A DNA stretch of 62,423 nt from Spirochaetales bacterium. GTDB taxonomy: Bacteria; Spirochaetota; Spirochaetia; SZUA-6; RPPD01. The DNA lies in assembly GCA_016929065.1 (NCBI GenBank), contig JAFGJO010000051.1:1-62423 (forward strand), written 5' to 3'. Below, in pieces: positions 46,727 through 59,517 of this stretch; positions within the stretch are counted from its first letter, which is position 1, and the number at the start of each line of letters is the position of its first letter. Both the position numbers and the translations under genes were made by a program. The notes beneath the pieces are model-generated. The model was not told the origin of the DNA, did no database searches, and was given only the letters and a program-made list of their open reading frames with translations.

Positions 46727-47224
46727 TCAATTTATATTTTCGCTGAATTCCATGACTTCAAGGTCTCCTGTATAACAGTCAAATGTCACTTTCCTGCCTG
46801 TTGTTCCTCCGACCTTTACTTCGACTGTTCTGATCATTTCCTGTTTCAGGAGAAGACGAGCCTGATCAAGATTTTTTTTCCCGACATTCAGCGACGGGTT
46901 TTTATGGAAACTGAAAATTGAAGCGCCCCCGACCAGATAGGCGGTAAAATACTGTTTGTCTGCTCCCTGCCGGACAAGACTATTTATCATCATCGGGATT
47001 AAAAGATCGGCATATTTTGGGACCGAGGCAAGCATACTGCTGTTGCTGTTGATTCGTGTCTGTTTTTCAACACTTGAATGAGGCAGGTAAATATGCGCCA
47101 GCCCGCCAATCCGGTGAAATTTATCAAAAATGACCACACCCACACACGATCCGAGTATTGTCTGCAGAACTGACTGCCCGTGTGCGACAGCATATTCTCC
47201 AATTCCGACATACACTTTTTTCAT
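46727..47224 (-). CDS. cheD: Chemoreceptor glutamine deamidase CheD
   Basis: CheD deamidates Gln residues on chemoreceptors and interacts with CheC/CheX-type phosphatases. The 165-residue protein has the catalytic TILGSCVGV (Cys27) and His44 in GLAHIYLPHS, with Thr22 before them; this Cys-His-Thr set is the CheD active site. Its ATG overlaps the cheY stop by four bases. It is the last gene of the cheX-cheY-cheD operon. Confidence 0.95.
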   Translation of the reverse strand: MKKVYVGIGEYAVAHGQSVLQTILGSCVGVVIFDKFHRIGGLAHIYLPHSSVEKQTRINSNSSMLASVPKYADLLIPMMINSLVRQGADKQYFTAYLVGGASIFSFHKNPSLNVGKKNLDQARLLLKQEMIRTVEVKVGGTTGRKVTFDCYTGDLEVMEFSENIN

Positions 47225-47577
47225 ATAACCTTTCGCAGCAGTTCAGCAAGACTTCCCGGCTCAAACGGTTTGACAATATACTGTTCAACTCCAAGCTGCT
47301 CTGCTGTTTTCATCGCCATATTGTCTGAGAGTGCTGAAACAACAATAATACGGGCATTTTCATCATATTCCAGAATAGCCCTAATCGCATCAAAACCGTC
47401 GCATCCGTCCATGGAAATATCGATCGTCGTCAGGTCGGGATTGATCTGTTTATATTTCAGAACAAGATCATCTCCATTCTCTGCTTGTCCGACAACCACA
47501 TGTCCTGCCGCAAGAACTTCATCCATGATTATTCTGCGTATTGTTTTTGAATCATCTGCTATTAAAATATTTGCCAA
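47221..47577 (-). CDS. cheY: Chemotaxis response regulator CheY
   Basis: A 118-residue single-domain receiver. Acidic residues Asp8 and Asp9, phosphorylation site Asp53 (TTIDISMDG), Ser81 and Lys103 (IVKPF) are all in place. The residue after the Asp53 loop Met is Asp where most CheY proteins have Pro (MPG). It starts at TTG 47577, with GGGGGGAAC upstream. It lies between cheX and cheD and is the probable motor-binding regulator. Confidence 0.93.
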   Translation of the reverse strand: MANILIADDSKTIRRIIMDEVLAAGHVVVGQAENGDDLVLKYKQINPDLTTIDISMDGCDGFDAIRAILEYDENARIIVVSALSDNMAMKTAEQLGVEQYIVKPFEPGSLAELLRKVI

Positions 47578-47601
47578 TGCTGTTCCCCCCGTTTCTATTT
47601 C

Positions 47602-48096
47602 TTAGTTATGAGCTGAATATTCTGTAACAACAATCTCAACTATTCCAGCTGATGTCATAAGACAGATATCCCTGGCTGAACTTGTTTCAGGATTGATATT
47701 GAGCTTATTCCCGAAGATGATGCTGGGTGTGGATACTTTCAGCCCTTTTGTTTCATTCCATGCAGGTGCAATGTGGGAGGTCAGGAGATTCACACATTCG
47801 CCAAGACAGTCTTTCATCAATAATTTCATTTCTCTTTCAGGGTAGTCCGCCGGAATATCCCCCTGAATCATTGCAGCAAGGTTTACTGCAGTCGCATAAC
47901 TTGTCGCCAACAGAACACTGCGCTCAATCGTCCCAAGACAGAAAACGATCACTGCAATTTCTCGTTTGATCAGGCAGTCCCCCCCCCTGACTACGGAAAC
48001 ACTGTCTGCCTGACTTTTATCACCCGTAAGAAATACAAGTGCATGCTTCATTGCCGATTCAGCTGCTTTTTCAAGTTCATTTTTCTTTTCTTTCAT
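47602..48096 (-). CDS. cheX: CheY-P phosphatase CheX
   Basis: CheX removes phosphate from CheY; it is used by Borrelia and Thermotoga. The 164-residue protein has a single phosphatase motif, DCLGECVNLLTS with Glu100 and Asn103 (E-x2-N), which is how CheX differs from CheC with two motifs. It is first in the operon with cheY and cheD. The start at 48096 has only a weak Shine-Dalgarno; several upstream A/T-rich bases give no clear promoter. Confidence 0.92.
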   Translation of the reverse strand: MKEKKNELEKAAESAMKHALVFLTGDKSQADSVSVVRGGDCLIKREIAVIVFCLGTIERSVLLATSYATAVNLAAMIQGDIPADYPEREMKLLMKDCLGECVNLLTSHIAPAWNETKGLKVSTPSIIFGNKLNINPETSSARDICLMTSAGIVEIVVTEYSAHN

Positions 48097-50327: not shown

Positions 50328-51383
50328 CTATTGAAATTTTTTCACCCGGATCGGCTGTTTTTCCTCATCCCCGATTGTTACAATAATGTAGGCATTTTCA
50401 TCGGCGATATATGGAACAGAATATTTGCCTCCCATCCGTTCCTGATCTGAAAGCACAATCTTTTTTCCGGCAGTCTCCAATTCTACTTTAAACGGCGTTG
50501 GTGTACCGTAATCGGGAATTGTCGCAGCAAAAACACCGAACACCATCCCGGCAGGGACCGGGTTCGGCGGGACCATTTCCAGTACCAGTAATTTTCCAGG
50601 CTGGACTTTCGTCCCTGACGAGATATTCTGGGCAACAATCGTTCCAGGTTCTCCCTTTGCGTCAGCTCTCACGGTAAATACAAAGCTCATCGAGGATGAG
50701 CTGATTTCGTTTAAAACGACATCATAACTTTTTCCCGCATAATCACCCACTGTAAAGCTTCGGCCGGTCAATCCCTTGCTGACTGTAAACTCCAGCGACA
50801 CCGTTCTGTTCCCGATTTCAGTACCCGCAGGCGGGTACTGTGCCACGATAGTGCCAATAGGTGCGGAATGCGTCACAAAATTGACCGGATTTGATATTTC
50901 CAGAAGATTCGACAGCCCGGATCTCACCGAGATGAGTTCCTTGACATCGTCAAGTTTTCTTCCGATATAATTATCGATTTTATCCGGCCTGGCGCCGAGA
51001 CTCACCCACAGCTTGACAACACGTCCAATCCGGACCTTCTCCTGTTTTTCAGGGTCCTGTTTGAATACGATATCCTTGTTCTCCGTAATCCCCGTATATT
51101 CAAAATTAATGTACGGATTGAGTTTTTTTGTCTGTAAAATCACAATCGAATCCTGGAAGTTCTGTCCGACAAAATCGGGAACAACGGTTTCATCGAGAGT
51201 CTGAACGAAGGCAAGAAATACCACAATTGCAAGAAAACCGGTAAAAATAATAAATCCGATAAAAATGTAGACAAAATTCTTGAAATTTCTCAGGGATGAA
51301 TTGTCATCGGGATTAGGAAGGATTTTACGGAAAAATTCCCCGACCTTCTCAAAAATATTTCTCAATACTTCCAGGATCTGCAT
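50328..51383 (-). CDS. Membrane-anchored PASTA-domain protein without kinase
   Basis: A 351-residue protein with a short cytoplasmic N terminus, one transmembrane helix (about 38-60) and three PASTA domains: about 70-135 (VVPDFVGQNFQDSIVILQ opening), 136-206 and 207-275. PASTA domains bind peptidoglycan fragments. It follows fmt with a one-base overlap (TAATG) and AGGAGG, so it is the third gene of a def-fmt-PASTA operon. There is no kinase domain; a separate Ser/Thr kinase lies 4.5 kb away. Confidence 0.92.
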   Translation of the reverse strand: MQILEVLRNIFEKVGEFFRKILPNPDDNSSLRNFKNFVYIFIGFIIFTGFLAIVVFLAFVQTLDETVVPDFVGQNFQDSIVILQTKKLNPYINFEYTGITENKDIVFKQDPEKQEKVRIGRVVKLWVSLGARPDKIDNYIGRKLDDVKELISVRSGLSNLLEISNPVNFVTHSAPIGTIVAQYPPAGTEIGNRTVSLEFTVSKGLTGRSFTVGDYAGKSYDVVLNEISSSSMSFVFTVRADAKGEPGTIVAQNISSGTKVQPGKLLVLEMVPPNPVPAGMVFGVFAATIPDYGTPTPFKVELETAGKKIVLSDQERMGGKYSVPYIADENAYIIVTIGDEEKQPIRVKKFQ

Positions 51384-52324
51384 TAATATCCTCCTAATAG
51401 ATATCCCAGTATTTCTTTATTGCCGTTCACAAATTCTTTAAAGCCCAACGCCTTTTTAAATTCCAGCTGGAGTTCCTGTACAGCAAGAATACCATTTATA
51501 GTGTGTATCAGAATTCCGTAGTCTTTGTCTACACCTTCTACTGTTCCCGCAGGCAACCTGTTCTTCGCGTTCCCGGACGGATAGACCACTGACTTTCTGA
51601 AAAACAGCCTTTTTCCCATAAATCGGGCAGATACTCCCGGCCAGGGTGTATAAGCGCGAATCATCCGTTCAATCAAGGCTGCGTCTTCATTCCAGGAAAT
51701 GTCCCCGTCGTTTTTTTGAATCAGGCTGCAGAAAGAAGCCTCTGAATCATTTTGCGGTATTTCCTTGAGCGTATGTTTATCAATCGCCCCGATCACCTCT
51801 GGGAGCATTTTCCCGCCAATTTCGGCAAGGAGTAAAGAAAGGCTTGCAGCAGTCTCGTCACCCTGTAACAGATATTCGCTTTGAGCCAGAATTGAACCTG
51901 AATCCATTTTCAAAGCAAGCCGCTGAACAGTCACTCCGGTACGGCTGTCTCCGGCCAGAATGGCTGCATTTACAGGAGAAGGCCCTCTGTATTTTGGAAG
52001 CAGTGAGGGATGCACATTTATCCCGCCAAGGGGAAACAGATCAAGAAAATTCTGCCTGAATATTTTGCCGTAGGCCGTGCACACCAGCAGTTCAGGTTGA
52101 AGGCTCCCTATATGTTCCCGTACTTTTTCGGTAAGTTTTTCCGGCTGAATAATATGCAGATTATGATCTATCGCCGCCTGTTTGACAGCAGAAAAACCGG
52201 TGTGCCTGCCCCGTCCCATTTGTCTGTCAGGAGCAGTGAGGACTCCTGCTACGGGATATTTGTCAGCAATATGAAGCAAAGAGGGGACGGCAAATTCCGG
52301 AGTTCCGGCAAACAGTATTCTCAT
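51383..52324 (-). CDS. fmt: Methionyl-tRNA formyltransferase
   Basis: Fmt formylates initiator Met-tRNA. The 313-residue protein has FAGTPEFAVPSL at the N terminus and the catalytic segment NVHPSLLPKYRG (Asn103, His105) followed by AGDSRTGVTV with the catalytic Asp nearby. Length and domains are normal. It starts 22 bp after def. Confidence 0.96.
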   Translation of the reverse strand: MRILFAGTPEFAVPSLLHIADKYPVAGVLTAPDRQMGRGRHTGFSAVKQAAIDHNLHIIQPEKLTEKVREHIGSLQPELLVCTAYGKIFRQNFLDLFPLGGINVHPSLLPKYRGPSPVNAAILAGDSRTGVTVQRLALKMDSGSILAQSEYLLQGDETAASLSLLLAEIGGKMLPEVIGAIDKHTLKEIPQNDSEASFCSLIQKNDGDISWNEDAALIERMIRAYTPWPGVSARFMGKRLFFRKSVVYPSGNAKNRLPAGTVEGVDKDYGILIHTINGILAVQELQLEFKKALGFKEFVNGNKEILGYLLGGY

Positions 52325-52346
52325 GTGATAGTGTATTGCACCTTAT

Positions 52347-52829
52347 TTATAAAAACGATTTCAATATCTGGTTTTTCCTGCGTTCACTGATATGATCAAT
52401 AAAAAGGACTCCGTTTAAATGGTCCAGTTCATGCAGAATCACTCTGGCGAGCATATCCTCTGCCGAACAGGTAAACGGCCTCCCCTTTTCATTAAACGCC
52501 TGAATGGTAACCGCTTCCGGACGAATCACCTCTGCATATTTTTGCGGGATCGACAAACACCCCTCTTCAAGGGTGACCTCTTCAACAGAGGTGTATACAA
52601 GTTCCGGATTGATAAAAACACGCCGGGTATCCTGCGGAACATCTGTAATAAACACCCGTATCAGCTGGCCAACCTGGACTCCGGCAAGGCCGATTCCATT
52701 TCCCCTGTGCATGGTCTCAAACATATTTTCAACCAGGTCATGCAGATATCCGTTAAATTCAGCTATCTCGGCAGAGCAATCCCTGAGTCTTTCATCTCCG
52801 ACCGTTATTATCTTTAATGCATCAACCAT
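52347..52829 (-). CDS. def: Peptide deformylase
   Basis: Def removes the formyl group from new proteins. All three motifs are present: GIGLAGVQVG (45-54), EGCLS (89-93, metal Cys91) and HELDH (133-137). The 160-residue length is normal for a bacterial deformylase. First gene of the def-fmt-PASTA operon. Confidence 0.96.
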   Translation of the reverse strand: MVDALKIITVGDERLRDCSAEIAEFNGYLHDLVENMFETMHRGNGIGLAGVQVGQLIRVFITDVPQDTRRVFINPELVYTSVEEVTLEEGCLSIPQKYAEVIRPEAVTIQAFNEKGRPFTCSAEDMLARVILHELDHLNGVLFIDHISERRKNQILKSFL

Positions 52830-53071
52830 ACTCTTTTATCCTGTTATATACTCGTTCGATGACACGAAAACGCATCGTCTCAATACATTCCCATTACATA
52901 GATATTAATAAAACTATCTCTCCCTGTCAAACAAATGGTGTGCTTTATTGTGAATCTTTCTTGTAATACTTACGTTCATATACGATACTGTTATTGAGAA
53001 ATAAAAATTAAAAATGTGCTTTCCATAGAAAACAGGATGAATTGAATAGTTTATTTATAAAAGGAGGTTTT

Positions 53072-53464
53072 ATGAGCGATAATATTCAGATTCCGCCGAA
53101 TGTCTCGCTGGAGGTCATTAAAGGCGATGATATGGGAAAAAGCTTCACGATTAATGAAAAGACGATGACTATCGGGCGTTCAAATATCTGCGATATCCAG
53201 CTGCATGACGGGTATATATCCAACAAACATTGCCAGATTGTTTTCAGGGGCGGGCATTTTACCATTATTGATCTGGGCAGCCTCAATAAAACAAAAGTGA
53301 ACGGGTCCAAATATGTGCAGAAAAACCTCCTGAACGAGGACATTATCCGGATCGGAAAAACAGAACTTCAGTTTTTATGGTCCGAGATTGATGAATCGAC
53401 AATCAATCAGGATGAAGATATTCTGGTTCCAGAAACAGATTCAGCCATGGAATCAGACGAATAA
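53072..53464 (+). CDS. Stand-alone FHA-domain protein
   Basis: A 130-residue cytoplasmic protein with one FHA domain, about 13-105. Phosphothreonine-binding residues are conserved: GRS (35-37), SxxH (Ser50, His53) and the Asn/Gly pair near 78-79. AAAAGGAGG precedes the ATG at 53072. The acidic tail is short. It lies beside a kinase/VWA/FHA cluster on the opposite strand and is a likely reader of its phosphorylation. Confidence 0.9.
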   Translation: MSDNIQIPPNVSLEVIKGDDMGKSFTINEKTMTIGRSNICDIQLHDGYISNKHCQIVFRGGHFTIIDLGSLNKTKVNGSKYVQKNLLNEDIIRIGKTELQFLWSEIDESTINQDEDILVPETDSAMESDE

Positions 53465-53505
53465 AAAAAAGGATGCCTGGGAAAATTCCGGGCATCCTGT
53501 TATTT
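53463..53505. terminator. Bidirectional terminator
   Basis: GGATGCCTGG and CCGGGCATCC form a ten-pair stem (one GT) at 53471-53497, with A8 on the left and a T-rich run on the right. It serves both the FHA gene and the converging VWA-FHA gene. Confidence 0.88.
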
Positions 53506-53530
53506 TTCAATTACTGACCAGTTTGAACAG

Positions 53531-54973
53531 CTAACTCTTTCGCTTTCTGCCCCGAGATTTGACTTTACGGGTAAGGGTAACACCGATTCCCCCGTCAAAC
53601 ACGATGGTCGATTCACCTACTGTGATGACATCTCCGGAACGCAGTTTTTTCGAGGTCACCTTCTGGTTATTCACCGTGATTGGACTGCCTGAACTCATGA
53701 CGGTGTATTCATTTCCCGTTCTGACAACCTTTACTTCTTTTTTCCCGATCGTCGGATCATCCGCAATGGTCACATCTGCTGCAGCTGATGCACTGATGGT
53801 GACCTCATGCTTGTTCTCCAGAATGGTGACCGGACTCATCCGCTTTGTTTTACCCGCAACGGTCAATACATCGAGGGAAGCTCCTTCCTGTCTGCTGTCA
53901 AATCTCAGACGCGCGAGTAATAACAACAACAGGAGTGCCAGCGGAATCATCAGAAAAATCCAGAACGCAAAATCCTTCTGGGGCAGCCCGAACAGTGTTG
54001 CAGAAAAATAATTTCTGTCTGCTTCATAATTTTTATTGCTGCTGTTGACCACAACTTTGAGATTTTTGACATTCGCCGGGATCATCGTTGCCTGATAGGT
54101 CAGCAGATATTCTGCCAGAACTCGGTCGCGTATTTCAGAATACAGATCTGCCAGCTGGTTCAGATTCTGCACCTCGTAGGCAACTCCTCCTGTTTCTCCG
54201 GAAATCCGCCTCAGATCCGGATTATTCCGCCCTTCAACGATGCCGATTGAAAATACAGATATTCCCTCGCTTGCCGCATACTGCAATGCTTTGTCAAGCC
54301 CCTGCCGGGTTTTAAACTGGGGATGTTCTGCGCCGGAAAACGCTTCGTTCCTGCCGTCGGTAAGAAGAATAATAACCTTGCGTCCTTTTGCTTCCTTGAA
54401 CCGGTCACAGGAATAGTACAGTGATTCATACAGTTCGGTATATCCCTGTCCTTTTCCCGGTTTTTCAATGTTCTCCAGGGCTTTGACAATTTGTGCTTTG
54501 TCGTTTGTTGAGGCAACTTCTTCCCCAATTTTGATATTGAAGGAAATAAGTGAAAGCCGGTCAGCCGGATTTTTTATCTTTCGAAGCAGATCCTTGATTG
54601 CCTCTTTGGCAAAATAAATCCGCTGCTGGCGTTCGACATCAGTTTCACGGCCGCCGATATCCTCATACATGCTTCCGGAATTATCCAGAAGAAAAAGAAT
54701 GCTGATCCCTTCATTGATGTTCGCACCCTGCCGGAATGACAGAATTTCCCGCTCAACAAGTTCTGTTCCCGGAATCCCTTCATAGACAGAAACCTGTTCC
54801 TGTTTTATTGTCGTAACAGGATTATTATAGCTGTCTGTCACACTCACCCACACCTTGATTGTCTGGTCAGCCAGAACTGTCGTATTATTAATCTGCGATA
54901 TAATGACATTCTCGGAAAATCCGTTCAGAACGGCAATGACGCAGAACAATGCTGTAAACAATATTTTTTTCAT
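53531..54973 (-). CDS. Secreted VWA protein with cytoplasmic FHA domain
   Basis: A 480-residue protein with a signal peptide (about 1-20), a VWA domain (about 90-275) with intact MIDAS DNSGS (97-101), one transmembrane helix (about 333-352) and a C-terminal FHA-like domain (about 385-465, with SITVNNQKVTSKKLRSGDVITVG as its second half). The extracellular VWA and intracellular FHA on either side of one helix suggest a transmembrane signal or scaffold. AGGGAGGGG precedes the ATG. It is the last gene of the kinase operon. Confidence 0.88.
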   Translation of the reverse strand: MKKILFTALFCVIAVLNGFSENVIISQINNTTVLADQTIKVWVSVTDSYNNPVTTIKQEQVSVYEGIPGTELVEREILSFRQGANINEGISILFLLDNSGSMYEDIGGRETDVERQQRIYFAKEAIKDLLRKIKNPADRLSLISFNIKIGEEVASTNDKAQIVKALENIEKPGKGQGYTELYESLYYSCDRFKEAKGRKVIILLTDGRNEAFSGAEHPQFKTRQGLDKALQYAASEGISVFSIGIVEGRNNPDLRRISGETGGVAYEVQNLNQLADLYSEIRDRVLAEYLLTYQATMIPANVKNLKVVVNSSNKNYEADRNYFSATLFGLPQKDFAFWIFLMIPLALLLLLLLARLRFDSRQEGASLDVLTVAGKTKRMSPVTILENKHEVTISASAAADVTIADDPTIGKKEVKVVRTGNEYTVMSSGSPITVNNQKVTSKKLRSGDVITVGESTIVFDGGIGVTLTRKVKSRGRKRKS

Positions 54974-54983
54974 GTTCCCCTCC

Positions 54984-55877
54984 CTACTTTACCTTGAACA
55001 GACATTGTGCATCGCCAAGACGCACGACGTCGCCATCCTGCAGGGCTGCTTCATTAATCCGCTTGTCATTGACAAATGTGCCCGCAACAGATTTCTGGTC
55101 GATCAGCAGGATATTTTTCTTCTTTCGCTTGATGACTGCGTGATCATTTGCCACACCCCGGTACCCGGAGAGATCCAGATCTGCATCATCTTTGCCCCCC
55201 AGCGTCACCGTACTTTGTGTCAGGAGTATTTCCTTTCCTTTTTGTATGCCGTTCAGCACATACAGGGAAGCACGTGCCAGTCTGTTTTCGATAATCCCGT
55301 AAAACAATCCGATAAAAAGCCCCAAAATAACCAGGCCGATTAACCGGGCAAACATGACATTTTCGGCAAAAAAGAGAAGACTGTATTCAAACAGCAATCC
55401 ACCGAGAAACCCTCCAATGAGCCCGCCGAAAATACCCGACCGCATTTTTGTAAAAGACCGTGAACGCACTCCTTCGACGATGCCGAGGAATATACCAAGA
55501 GCAGCCCACCCGATTGCTTTTGCAAGGGGATAGCCAATACTTTTCATGCTGGCATTTGAATAAAATACCGCATTGCCAATCAGCAATCCTGCCGCCTGGC
55601 CCGCGATAAATCCAAGCACTCCGCCGATTGCTCCAATGATCAGGCCTGTTATGGCTCCGGAGATTATTTTTCTTGTATTGTGGCTGGTAAGCCCTTCGTG
55701 ACACCCGATGATTAATCCAAGACATACCCCGACCGAGCCGCCAAGCATGATACTGTATAAAAAGAGTGTGAACATGTTTTCCTGAAAATATACTATGAGT
55801 TCTGCAACCGGCCAGACAAACAGGCCTGCAATGATCCCGATAGCACAAAAAAACAACAGCCGTACTGTTAATGACAT
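54984..55877 (-). CDS. Multi-pass membrane protein with C-terminal FHA domain
   Basis: A 297-residue protein. Residues 1-210 are Gly-rich transmembrane helices (about six), with repeated GxxxG-like motifs such as GGSVGVCLGLIIGCHEG and GIFGGLIGGFLGGLL. The last 80 residues are an FHA domain (VTLGGKDDADLDLSG near 222-236, then HAVIKRKKKN and SVAGTFVNDKRI). Located between the kinase gene and the VWA-FHA gene in one operon. AAGGAGG precedes the ATG. Function unknown. Confidence 0.85.
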   Translation of the reverse strand: MSLTVRLLFFCAIGIIAGLFVWPVAELIVYFQENMFTLFLYSIMLGGSVGVCLGLIIGCHEGLTSHNTRKIISGAITGLIIGAIGGVLGFIAGQAAGLLIGNAVFYSNASMKSIGYPLAKAIGWAALGIFLGIVEGVRSRSFTKMRSGIFGGLIGGFLGGLLFEYSLLFFAENVMFARLIGLVILGLFIGLFYGIIENRLARASLYVLNGIQKGKEILLTQSTVTLGGKDDADLDLSGYRGVANDHAVIKRKKKNILLIDQKSVAGTFVNDKRINEAALQDGDVVRLGDAQCLFKVK

Positions 55878-55887
55878 TTTGTCCTCC

Positions 55888-57834
55888 TTATTGAACTATT
55901 CTAATTTGTTTTTTTCCTTCGTCATATTCGACGCTTATTCTGGTATCCTTCTCTGCCTGAATCCAGAACGTTTTGTTTGATGTTGTTTCATCATCCCTTT
56001 TGATCGTCAGGATATATTCGCCCGACTCAAGTGTGAAAGTTTTTCCCTTTTTCTCTGTGTTCCCGAATACGACAAATGCCTTGTCTTCCGGGCCGATAAA
56101 ATCACTGGCTTTATTGTCAATGAATATCTGCAGCCCGTCATGAGAACTGTTAAGAATCAGCTTTCCCGGCTTCCGCATGAGTTCTGCATATGCAGTCAAT
56201 GATTCCAATTCACGATTGATATATACCGAAATTTCACGAGTGAAATATCCATCAACAACATACCGGAACTGACAGTCGAGATTCACCGGGAGCTGCCCTT
56301 CAGCGTATTTCCAGTCAACCCATGAACCGTATGGTTTGTAAAATATTTTGACATCCGCGTTCAAAGACCGTTTTGTCGTACGGTCAACAACCCGATGCGT
56401 CACTGGTATTTTCCGGTATGGATCAACAGGATATTTAATTTCGATAACCTTGCGTTTATCCGGGTAGTCAGGATTCTGTTTTTGAATCACGATTGGAGCC
56501 AGTGTAAACGCATTCAGATATTTTTTATCCTCAACAGTCAATGAGAGATCATATTTCCCTTCCGGAAGAAACAGAACGCCGGATGACAATGCACTTTGTT
56601 CTTCTGCGTCTGCTCCGCTTCCATTCATAAAAGGAATTCTGACAACCCGATGAGACAGATTATATGATTGTGTTTTTTGTCTGTCTTCTTTTTTTTCCGC
56701 TTTTGGATTGTTATAGGTGAGTTTCATTTCGGTAAACACTATCAACGGATTTTTATAGTAATCTTTGGGAATAATCACCCGCACTTCAAGTGCGCCGACG
56801 GATCTCCCGAAGATAAAACTGTAAAATATCTCTGTCAGCTGGTCACCTAAAAAAACCACGCCAGTAAATACGATAACGAATACAGCCGCAGCAATGGCCA
56901 ATTTTACAATCGGGCGTTTCTTTTTTCTCGGGACCTTTTCGAACTGTCCGGGCTTCAAGGGGTCTTCACGAAGATATTTTTTCAGCCCTGCATGTACCTG
57001 ATCCTGATTTTTAAATTTGAAGAGATAATTATCAAGTTTATGGGTAAGCGTTTCCAGATCCTTGTAGCGCCGTCCGATTTTATGGTTCATTGTCTTTTTT
57101 ATGATTGTTTTGAAGAACCCCGGTATTTTCCCGGTATATTTCTGCGGCCGGGGATAAATGCCCCTGGTAATCCGGTGAATGGTATCTGCAGAAAAACCTC
57201 CTGGAAATGCTTTTTTTCCGGTAATCATCTGGTAAAAAAGCGCTCCAAGCGAATAGATATCAGACCGCTTGTCGACATGTTTCGCATCCTTGATTTGTTC
57301 AGGCGACATGTATGAAGGTGTTCCCATGACAATACCCGTTTTGGTGAGTTCTTCCTCTTCTTCGGTTTCTACCATGGCAATGCCAAAATCAAACAGCTTC
57401 ACTTCACCCGCATTTGATAGGAGCACATTATCGGGTTTTATATCACGATGAATGACACCCTTTGAATGTGCGTACTGTAATCCGCGGCATATTTCCCTAA
57501 GAATCAGGATTGCTGCGAGTGGGCTTATCTTTTTCTTTTTCTCGATCAAATCTTCAAGCGAAATACCGTCAATAAATTCCATCGCGATATAATATGACTG
57601 TCCATGCTTAAAGTGGTCATACACTGACACAATATTTTCATGCCGGAATCCCATCATCACCCTTGCTTCTCTTCTGAAACGGTCCGAGAGGCTTTTTTTT
57701 GACGAGATGCTCAGCCGCTTGATGATGATATCTTTCTTCAACGTCGGGTGAACCGCAAGATACACCTTGCCCATCCCCCCTTCGCCGATTACTTTTTTTA
57801 TTCTGTATTTGTCAATCATTTTATCTTTCGCCAT
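55888..57834 (-). CDS. Transmembrane Ser/Thr protein kinase (no PASTA domain)
   Basis: A 648-residue Hanks-type kinase. Catalytic core: glycine loop GEGGMGKV (17-24), Lys39, Glu56, HRDIKPDN (129-136, Asp131), DFG (149-151), activation segment GTPSYMSPEQ (171-180). A transmembrane helix is near 312-332, followed by a 310-residue external beta-rich domain of unknown fold. It lacks PASTA domains. Activation-loop Thr residues (TKTG) are candidate autophosphorylation sites. It starts 42 bp after the phosphatase gene and leads an FHA and VWA-FHA gene. Confidence 0.94.
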   Translation of the reverse strand: MAKDKMIDKYRIKKVIGEGGMGKVYLAVHPTLKKDIIIKRLSISSKKSLSDRFRREARVMMGFRHENIVSVYDHFKHGQSYYIAMEFIDGISLEDLIEKKKKISPLAAILILREICRGLQYAHSKGVIHRDIKPDNVLLSNAGEVKLFDFGIAMVETEEEEELTKTGIVMGTPSYMSPEQIKDAKHVDKRSDIYSLGALFYQMITGKKAFPGGFSADTIHRITRGIYPRPQKYTGKIPGFFKTIIKKTMNHKIGRRYKDLETLTHKLDNYLFKFKNQDQVHAGLKKYLREDPLKPGQFEKVPRKKKRPIVKLAIAAAVFVIVFTGVVFLGDQLTEIFYSFIFGRSVGALEVRVIIPKDYYKNPLIVFTEMKLTYNNPKAEKKEDRQKTQSYNLSHRVVRIPFMNGSGADAEEQSALSSGVLFLPEGKYDLSLTVEDKKYLNAFTLAPIVIQKQNPDYPDKRKVIEIKYPVDPYRKIPVTHRVVDRTTKRSLNADVKIFYKPYGSWVDWKYAEGQLPVNLDCQFRYVVDGYFTREISVYINRELESLTAYAELMRKPGKLILNSSHDGLQIFIDNKASDFIGPEDKAFVVFGNTEKKGKTFTLESGEYILTIKRDDETTSNKTFWIQAEKDTRISVEYDEGKKQIRIVQ

Positions 57835-57875
57835 GATTCATTCCTCATTATAATTTCCCGGTTTTTCAATGGATT

Positions 57876-58931
57876 TTATGTCAAATCCTCAAGTACAATG
57901 ACATTATTTTTAATATCCACAGGCTGATCAGGACTCAAATAGGCAACCTGAAACCGGCCCGGGTTGTGTATCTGCAGATATTTCCCTTCTGCACGCTCTT
58001 TGAATGCACCGGTGACAGGACGGTGTCCGCCAAAATATCTGGCATGATCCCATACCGTGTAGGGAAGATAGTGTTGGATCATTTCCAAGACACTCCCTTC
58101 GTCTGCAGCATCATTATCTGTCCATGTAAGCCCGTACACCACGTCTGCATTGGTGCGGTAGTTAATCACTTTTTCGCTCGGGAAAAACTTTTGGGGCTCT
58201 GAATGGGAAATAATAAAATTATTCCCGATTGCAAGCAGCGGCAGGTTTTTTTCCATAATTGCATACTTCTTTAAAAGTTTCGCACTATAAAACTTTTTCA
58301 TATAGTCAGCAACCATGGCACCTTCATATGCATATTTTCTGAACGGATAATTTCCGCTGCCATTTTCGTTTAAAATGTTTTCGTGATTTCCTTTCAGAAA
58401 ATGAAAATGATAGGGAAATGCCGCTTTTACTTCCCATACCATTTCCATGAGTCCCATGCTTTCACGCATCTCCTGGTCCATATGTGCATGTTTCCGGTAT
58501 TGATCCTGAAATTCCCCAAACGCAAGTTTCCAGCGTTTTGCCTGATGTCCTTCTGAATGAAATGCATCTCCGACACAGACGATCTGAATTTTCCCCGCAG
58601 CAAGCAATTCGAGTGTCGTGCCGTAACCGAATTTCGTTGAGAGCATTATACTCAAAAAGAAATCCATCCGCGCATGCAGGTCGGGAACAACAATTGTCGG
58701 AATATTTTTAATCAAAAAAATTATTCCGCCGGTATTGTCGTTTTTATCCCTGGGCCGCACACGGGGATCTTCGGTCTCAAATACCCTGTTGATTTCTTCA
58801 CAAATCATCAGATATGGATCATTTTTCGGAGGAAAAGGGCGCGAGAAAATCTCCTCCAGGCGCCCTTGTAATCCATCCGTATTTTTTCCATATAATGGTG
58901 TCAGTTTATTTCGTTGTGCATTGTCATCCAT
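57876..58931 (-). CDS. PPP-like metallophosphoesterase
   Basis: A 351-residue cytoplasmic calcineurin-like phosphoesterase. Metal motifs: DLHAR (Asp-x-His, about 78-82), GDAFHSEG (about 115-122), GNHEN (about 178-182), SHSEP (about 242-246) and GGHRPVTG near residue 315. The GDxxDR motif of eukaryotic PPPs is altered to GDAFHSE. It lies just upstream of the Ser/Thr kinase on the same strand, so it may be the matching phosphatase, by inference. Confidence 0.85.
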   Translation of the reverse strand: MDDNAQRNKLTPLYGKNTDGLQGRLEEIFSRPFPPKNDPYLMICEEINRVFETEDPRVRPRDKNDNTGGIIFLIKNIPTIVVPDLHARMDFFLSIMLSTKFGYGTTLELLAAGKIQIVCVGDAFHSEGHQAKRWKLAFGEFQDQYRKHAHMDQEMRESMGLMEMVWEVKAAFPYHFHFLKGNHENILNENGSGNYPFRKYAYEGAMVADYMKKFYSAKLLKKYAIMEKNLPLLAIGNNFIISHSEPQKFFPSEKVINYRTNADVVYGLTWTDNDAADEGSVLEMIQHYLPYTVWDHARYFGGHRPVTGAFKERAEGKYLQIHNPGRFQVAYLSPDQPVDIKNNVIVLEDLT

Positions 58932-58980: not shown

Positions 58981-59517
58981 TTATTCATCCTCCAGAACAG
59001 TTTTGTTTACCTCTATAAATTCCTCTTCAATCATCGTCGCGGCATCATAGATGGTCTGTTGCTGTTCCTCAGGAGACATATTGTCATCCTCGACAACTGC
59101 AATTTTATAGATCGGAGAAGTGCTTTTTACCGGCCCGCCGGAAAATGAAATAATATTGCCGACAGAAACATTACTTTGCAGTGTTGAACTTTCGCTCTCG
59201 GCACTGTCAGGAGCATTTGTCCGGTACCCGATGCTTGTGTACTTGACCGATCGTACCCCGTCGATTTTTGGCCCGATATTCACCAATGAGCCCGAATACG
59301 TAAGCGCCAGAGCGCCTTTTTCATCATCCTTCAAGAGTTCATCAACTTCTGTCATAGACATTTCACCGAGTTTTTCGGCAAAGACATCATTTTTTTCGAG
59401 CCATGCCTGTGCCACTTTCTCCAGTGCATCGACGTCGCTGTCCAGTTTCACTGACTGTGCAATACCTTTTACGTGATCCTGTAGATCCGCAGGAATTTTA
59501 TTAAAAAATTCACCCAT
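58981..59517 (-). CDS. Acidic hypothetical protein
   Basis: A 178-residue soluble, acidic protein. The N-terminal 60 residues are helical (FNKIPADLQDHVKGIAQSV), the middle is a beta region (YSGSLVNIGPKIDGVRSVKYTSIGYR, about 75-100), and the C terminus is a strongly acidic helix. AAGGAGG precedes the ATG. I do not recognise a family. It is 50 bp upstream of the phosphatase and could belong to the same transcript. Confidence 0.72.
   Translation of the reverse strand: MGEFFNKIPADLQDHVKGIAQSVKLDSDVDALEKVAQAWLEKNDVFAEKLGEMSMTEVDELLKDDEKGALALTYSGSLVNIGPKIDGVRSVKYTSIGYRTNAPDSAESESSTLQSNVSVGNIISFSGGPVKSTSPIYKIAVVEDDNMSPEEQQQTIYDAATMIEEEFIEVNKTVLEDE

Follow-up and report, generated by a model that had tools for sequence, protein, structure and literature searches.

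A five-gene operon encoding a transmembrane Hanks-type Ser/Thr kinase, a PPP-like phosphatase, two membrane proteins with FHA domains, and a small soluble protein, D178, is conserved in much of the phylum Spirochaetota. In the window, which is the whole 62,423-nucleotide stretch of Spirochaetales DNA analysed here, the operon occupies positions 59517 to 53531 of the minus strand in the order D178–PPP–kinase–TM-FHA–VWA-FHA, with gaps of about 50, 40, 10, and 10 bases between successive genes (Table 1). From its sequence, we propose, with what we judge to be an even chance of being right, that the operon encodes a spirochaete switch that senses the envelope and works by Ser/Thr phosphorylation; it would be reset by the PPP enzyme and would probably act through D178 and D178-HU, a D178 paralogue carrying a DNA-binding domain. 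No paper on this operon was found in the literature searched.

Boundaries and conservation of the operon

The preliminary description of this DNA outlined a cluster consisting of a kinase without PASTA domains, a PPP-like phosphatase, a multi-pass FHA protein, a VWA–TM–FHA protein, a stand-alone FHA protein on the opposite strand, and a membrane PASTA protein nearby. All of these genes are present, but the minus-strand unit was misdrawn: the PASTA gene was wrongly included and D178 was overlooked, so that the unit was taken to begin at the phosphatase, whereas the conserved unit starts one gene earlier. The VWA-FHA and stand-alone FHA genes converge on a terminator-like hairpin, which probably marks the operon end. 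Elsewhere in the window (46727-48096), three short open reading frames resemble CheD, CheY, and CheX, as judged by eye from their translations.

Table 1. Features of the operon and its surroundings in the window
Feature	Position	Strand	Evidence and remarks
D178	58981..59517	-	178 aa, soluble; operon gene 1; neighbour of the phosphatase in 45/48 adequate loci
PPP/calcineurin-like phosphatase, diverged	57876..58931	-	Invariant metal ligands; Metallophos in 21/33 family members; PP1 profile match
Transmembrane Hanks-type Ser/Thr kinase	55888..57834	-	Pkinase E 4.9e-56; without PASTA
Kinase extracytoplasmic region, predicted beta-sandwich (Ig/pilin/adhesin-like) domains	55891..56829	-	AlphaFold, Foldseek, VIA
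TM-FHA, Gly-rich multi-pass membrane protein with C-terminal FHA	54984..55877	-	FHA E 3e-13 (Pfam)
VWA-FHA	53531..54973	-	VWA E 8e-20; FHA E 9.5e-4 (Pfam), the latter slightly short of the Pfam cut-off
Terminator-like hairpin, 13 bp, between convergent VWA-FHA and FHA genes	53470..53498	.	Probable operon end
Stand-alone canonical FHA protein, 130 aa	53072..53464	+	FHA E 5e-18 (Pfam); separately transcribed
Membrane PASTA protein	50328..51383	-	PASTA E 2e-22 (Pfam); outside the operon

Searches of 247 Spirochaetota genomes gave phosphatase matches in 49 genomes, strong VWA-FHA matches (E<1e-38) in 26, and strong TM-FHA matches (E<1e-20) also in 26, with the strong VWA-FHA and TM-FHA matches sharing genomes, contig, and order in nearly all cases. 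Together with 79 named loci, these yielded 101 distinct phosphatase loci, of which 48 had adequate flanks (at least 1.5 kb upstream and at least 6.5 kb downstream of the phosphatase). The search for the same gene order in other spirochaetes, suggested in the preliminary description, confirms the grouping of the kinase, phosphatase, TM-FHA, and VWA-FHA genes as one unit: the complete five-gene set is found in order in 44 of the 48 adequate distinct loci, spread over at least 15 family-level groups, and this order is far beyond chance. The TM-FHA and VWA-FHA genes are fused in five loci; in the four of these that are among the 44 complete ones, they form a single protein of about 760 aa. Pfam confirms the FHA and VWA domains in two fusions. 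Treponema-like relatives carry a reduced set of FHA, phosphatase, and kinase genes only, and the model pathogens T. pallidum and B. burgdorferi have been reported to lack such kinases (PMC1262709).

Since the operon resides on a single chromosome-sized contig in four genomes, an assembly artefact is ruled out, and the named loci carry spirochaete labels, taken as given, except for two MAGs labelled otherwise. Alkalispirochaeta alkalica (locus L243) is one of the free-living spirochaetes in which the operon occurs. No further recurrent neighbour was found beside the operon, and a wider conserved neighbourhood was rejected because the commonest flanking gene occurs in only 7 loci. Two individual loci carry additional kinase genes: a small kinase–FHA fusion protein (Ser/Thr kinase and FHA by Pfam) directly follows the operon at L119:8814-10031, and at L207:7133-10014 a complete operon is closely followed by a second kinase–phosphatase pair that points the other way.

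Kinase, phosphatase, and FHA proteins

The kinase consists of a kinase domain (residues 10–255), a transmembrane helix (about 306–337), and an outer region (336–648), and the Hanks-type residues K39, H129-R130-D131, and D149-F150-G151 are invariant in 20 members. The kinase-domain match to the PASTA kinase model NF033483 is limited to this domain and reaches 273 bits, below the cut-off of 450. One transmembrane helix and an outer region of 293–357 aa are kept in all 40 kinase relatives tested. For the window protein, the outer region is modelled as beta-sandwich domains (AlphaFold pLDDT 92.3), with a Foldseek match to 6fwv (E 5.5e-10) and two VIA matches, one at Z 10.3 (rmsd 9.8 over 233) and one to a transthyretin-like domain at Z 8.7 (rmsd 1.9 over 72). 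The likeness of this predicted structure to bacterial pilins and adhesins is one of shared fold type and does not indicate a ligand. A PEGA domain in the outer region was dropped as a candidate, as it was matched in only 2 of 20 members (E 0.027), and a defence-system reading was rejected because PADLOC matched the generic kinase domain only (PD-T4-6, mad6) and no other operon gene. The genome contains five kinase matches; one further kinase gene (L248:2427-5135) is convergent to the gene for a protein that has both an FHA domain and a putative nucleotide-cyclase domain.

The phosphatase directly adjoins the kinase in 45 of the 48 adequate loci. The window protein itself gave no Pfam or NCBIfam match, but Pfam Metallophos matches 21 of 33 family members (best E 3.3e-7), and a PDB search with the family profile retrieves PP1 (E 7e-4), which upholds the earlier label of a PPP-like enzyme. 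D84, H86, D122, N182, H183, H243, and H303 are invariant over the 33 members, and the PPP metal-ligand motifs DxH, GD, GNH, H, and H are all present. The second motif reads GDxxHxE in all members and departs from the complete GDxxDRG; with its Asp-Arg missing, the substrate may be something other than a phosphoprotein. The genome gave no match to PP2C_2 (PF13672), the single PP2C model searched, and the PPP enzyme is thus a reasonable partner for the kinase.

Almost all FHA domains of the two membrane proteins have lost the phosphothreonine pocket. TM-FHA, which has several hydrophobic stretches in its first 200 residues, carries Gly/Ala in place of the pocket Arg/Ser in the window protein; both Arg and Ser are present in 2 of 63 TM-FHA domains and lost in the other 61. 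VWA-FHA is predicted from hydropathy to comprise a signal-peptide-like start, the VWA domain, one transmembrane helix, and a cytoplasmic FHA domain, and none of its 69 FHA domains, that of the window included, retains both pocket residues, which does not support the earlier view of this protein as a phosphothreonine reader. Nor is the VWA–TM–FHA layout unusual, as had been supposed, since it is common in the phylum outside the operon. A second widespread VWA–TM–FHA family of about 490 aa (L250-L261) has no kinase neighbours, and some of its members have an intact phosphothreonine pocket. The signal-peptide-like start preceding the VWA domain places this domain, by prediction, in the periplasm, and its MIDAS (DxSxS...T...D) is intact, with D97, S99, S101, and D206 at 100% and T179 at 96%; a role as an extra periplasmic module is plausible.

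The stand-alone FHA protein of the window, starting at the ATG at 53072, has an intact Arg/Ser/His/Asn pocket. All 27 stand-alone FHA proteins found beside the operon have the canonical pocket, a proportion that may be inflated because they were collected with a model seeded on a canonical FHA domain, while the losses in the membrane FHA domains are unaffected by this. A stand-alone FHA gene lies within 8 kb of the operon in only 13 of the 48 adequate loci, and in locus L112 a 60%-identical relative of the window protein is encoded directly upstream of D178. Judged by its residues, the stand-alone FHA protein is the probable phosphothreonine reader of the system. Treponema-type stand-alone FHA proteins have an N-terminal [DE]xTI threonine, which is reminiscent of the phosphosite of GarA/OdhI; it is absent from the window protein and is hence only a lead.

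D178 and the PASTA protein

D178 is encoded immediately upstream of the phosphatase. Every one of the 26 sampled genomes that carry a VWA-FHA gene also has D178, as against 5 of the 221 genomes lacking that gene (Fisher p 1.7e-30, a value that ignores shared ancestry). Its AlphaFold model has a pLDDT of 89; against solved structures it gave no Foldseek match at E<=1e-3 and a best VIA Z of 4.0. Searches of Pfam and NCBIfam yielded no convincing family, and the best match among PDB sequences (E 0.066) is taken as chance. In the lack of a fold or family match, the role of D178 is read from gene order and from a paralogue of about 300 aa, D178-HU, in which D178 is joined to an HU/IHF-type DNA-binding domain. 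The HU domain is matched by PF00216 with E 4.6e-13 in this genome (49.7 bits against a curated cut-off of 22.4) and with E 1.8e-15 (57.3 bits) in locus L110. The D178-HU gene lies upstream of the operon and divergent from it in 25 of the 48 adequate loci, while in this genome it is on a different contig, and only some of the genomes with the operon yielded it. The fusion suggests where the signal may go.

The PASTA gene of the window lies about 2 kb from the operon end and 4.5 kb from the kinase gene, as part of a def-fmt-PASTA cluster (50328-52829). In most of the loci examined its place is after def-fmt, which also holds for loci from genomes of about 1 Mb that lack a kinase match, and priA is upstream of def-fmt-PASTA in two loci (L152, L153). 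The protein, which occurs almost phylum-wide, matches only the transmembrane and PASTA part of the PknB_PASTA_kin model (positions 332–559), and none of the 247 Spirochaetota genomes reaches the cut-off for a PASTA kinase (NF033483, 450 bits); the PASTA protein that the phylum encodes at the def-fmt locus is thus one without a kinase. In B. subtilis, prkC is downstream of def-fmt, further along than the spirochaete PASTA gene (PMC8359813). The spirochaete gene may plausibly be what is left of prkC, minus the kinase part, at its former locus, but this history is unproven. Gene order and genome distribution led to its rejection as an operon part, and it is an unrelated neighbour of the operon.

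Signalling model and comparison with known systems

In the proposed switch, the outer region of the kinase and the periplasmic VWA domain would sense the envelope, while the two pocket-less FHA domains would surround the kinase as a scaffold that works independently of phosphorylation. Possible substrates of the kinase are D178, D178-HU, or both, or else a stand-alone FHA protein; the phosphorylated product would be bound by the canonical stand-alone FHA protein and reset by the PPP phosphatase, and the output would reach the DNA via D178-HU. A more specific form of this model, a spirochaete membrane-to-nucleoid pathway in which the envelope state tunes an HU-type protein through kinase-modified D178 on the pocket-less FHA scaffold, is tentative and seems somewhat unlikely.

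The preliminary description suggested that the sensing parts, PASTA and VWA, had been moved to separate proteins and that the kinase itself does not sense. The proximity of the PASTA gene in the window and the match of its product to just the non-kinase part of PknB_PASTA_kin agree with such a split, but in four closed genomes 0.68 Mb or more separates the gene from the operon, the gene also occurs in genomes that give no kinase match, and the kinase has a conserved outer region of its own; the split is largely refuted for PASTA, and we regard it as highly improbable. It is also quite unlikely that the PPP-like enzyme, rather than being a protein phosphatase, acts on nucleotides as an ApaH-like hydrolase or is some other phosphoesterase, by which the operon would tie the kinase to nucleotide signalling. 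The altered second motif would fit such an enzyme, as would the 12 of 33 family members without a Metallophos match, whereas its best PDB matches are the protein phosphatases PP1 and PP5, and its gene adjoins that of the kinase almost throughout.

Another arrangement would resemble the archaeal Arn network: the kinase would phosphorylate the cytoplasmic side of VWA-FHA or TM-FHA, the stand-alone FHA protein would bind the phosphothreonine, and the PPP enzyme would release it, with a transcriptional output. We consider this unlikely, although the same four types of part occur in both systems (PMC12852372, PMC10470591), canonical stand-alone FHA proteins are found near the operon, and D178-HU offers a possible link to DNA, since the spirochaete VWA domain is predicted to lie outside the membrane and only 13 of the 48 adequate loci have a stand-alone FHA gene nearby.

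As an envelope-sensing switch or otherwise, the operon is a sharply bounded unit shared by much of the phylum, and it offers a defined substrate set for testing. It provides an example of membrane FHA domains without a ligand pocket and a case of a PPP-type enzyme in the usual place of PP2C, and it has led to a corrected reading of the spirochaete PASTA protein, which follows def-fmt and has no kinase domain. If the membrane-to-nucleoid pathway is true, the envelope state would directly tune an HU-type DNA-binding protein, in a manner peculiar to spirochaetes.

Several known systems share parts with the operon. The TerY-P triad consists of a VWA protein, a PP2C phosphatase, and a kinase; the operon likewise combines VWA, phosphatase, and kinase, but its phosphatase is of another family, its VWA domain has a different topology, and its FHA content differs. 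The PASTA kinases PknB, PrkC, and Stk1 of Firmicutes and Actinobacteria, which work with PP2C, are membrane kinases with outer modules, as is the operon kinase, whose kinase domain is most like their NCBIfam model; the actinobacterial enzymes also have FHA partners. In contrast, the operon kinase has no PASTA domains, and a PPP enzyme replaces PP2C.

The T6SS threonine phosphorylation pathway of PpkA, PppA, Fha1, and TagR resembles the operon in having a membrane kinase, an extracytoplasmic VWA domain, a cognate phosphatase, and an FHA partner encoded by neighbouring genes (PMC3224232). The VWA domain resides on PpkA itself in that pathway, whereas it is on a separate protein in the operon. 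PppA is a PP2C-type phosphatase. A link to T6SS was rejected, as no match to VipB/TssC (PF05943) was found in this genome, which is about 96% complete.

The archaellum regulatory network of Sulfolobales comprises the FHA protein ArnA, the VWA protein ArnB, the kinases ArnC and ArnD, and the phosphatase PP2A, and thus shares with the operon a Hanks kinase, a PPP-family phosphatase, and FHA and VWA proteins; its transcription-level output is likened to the output proposed for the operon (PMC12852372, PMC10470591). The operon differs in placing VWA and FHA on one membrane protein, in its pocket-less membrane FHA domains, in its transmembrane kinase with an outer region, and in the additional D178 and D178-HU. 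Because of its topology, its pocket-less FHA domains, D178, and D178-HU, and with no T6SS match, the operon is a member of neither the Arn nor the T6SS class, and yet, by composition, these are the two systems that it would most resemble in its working.
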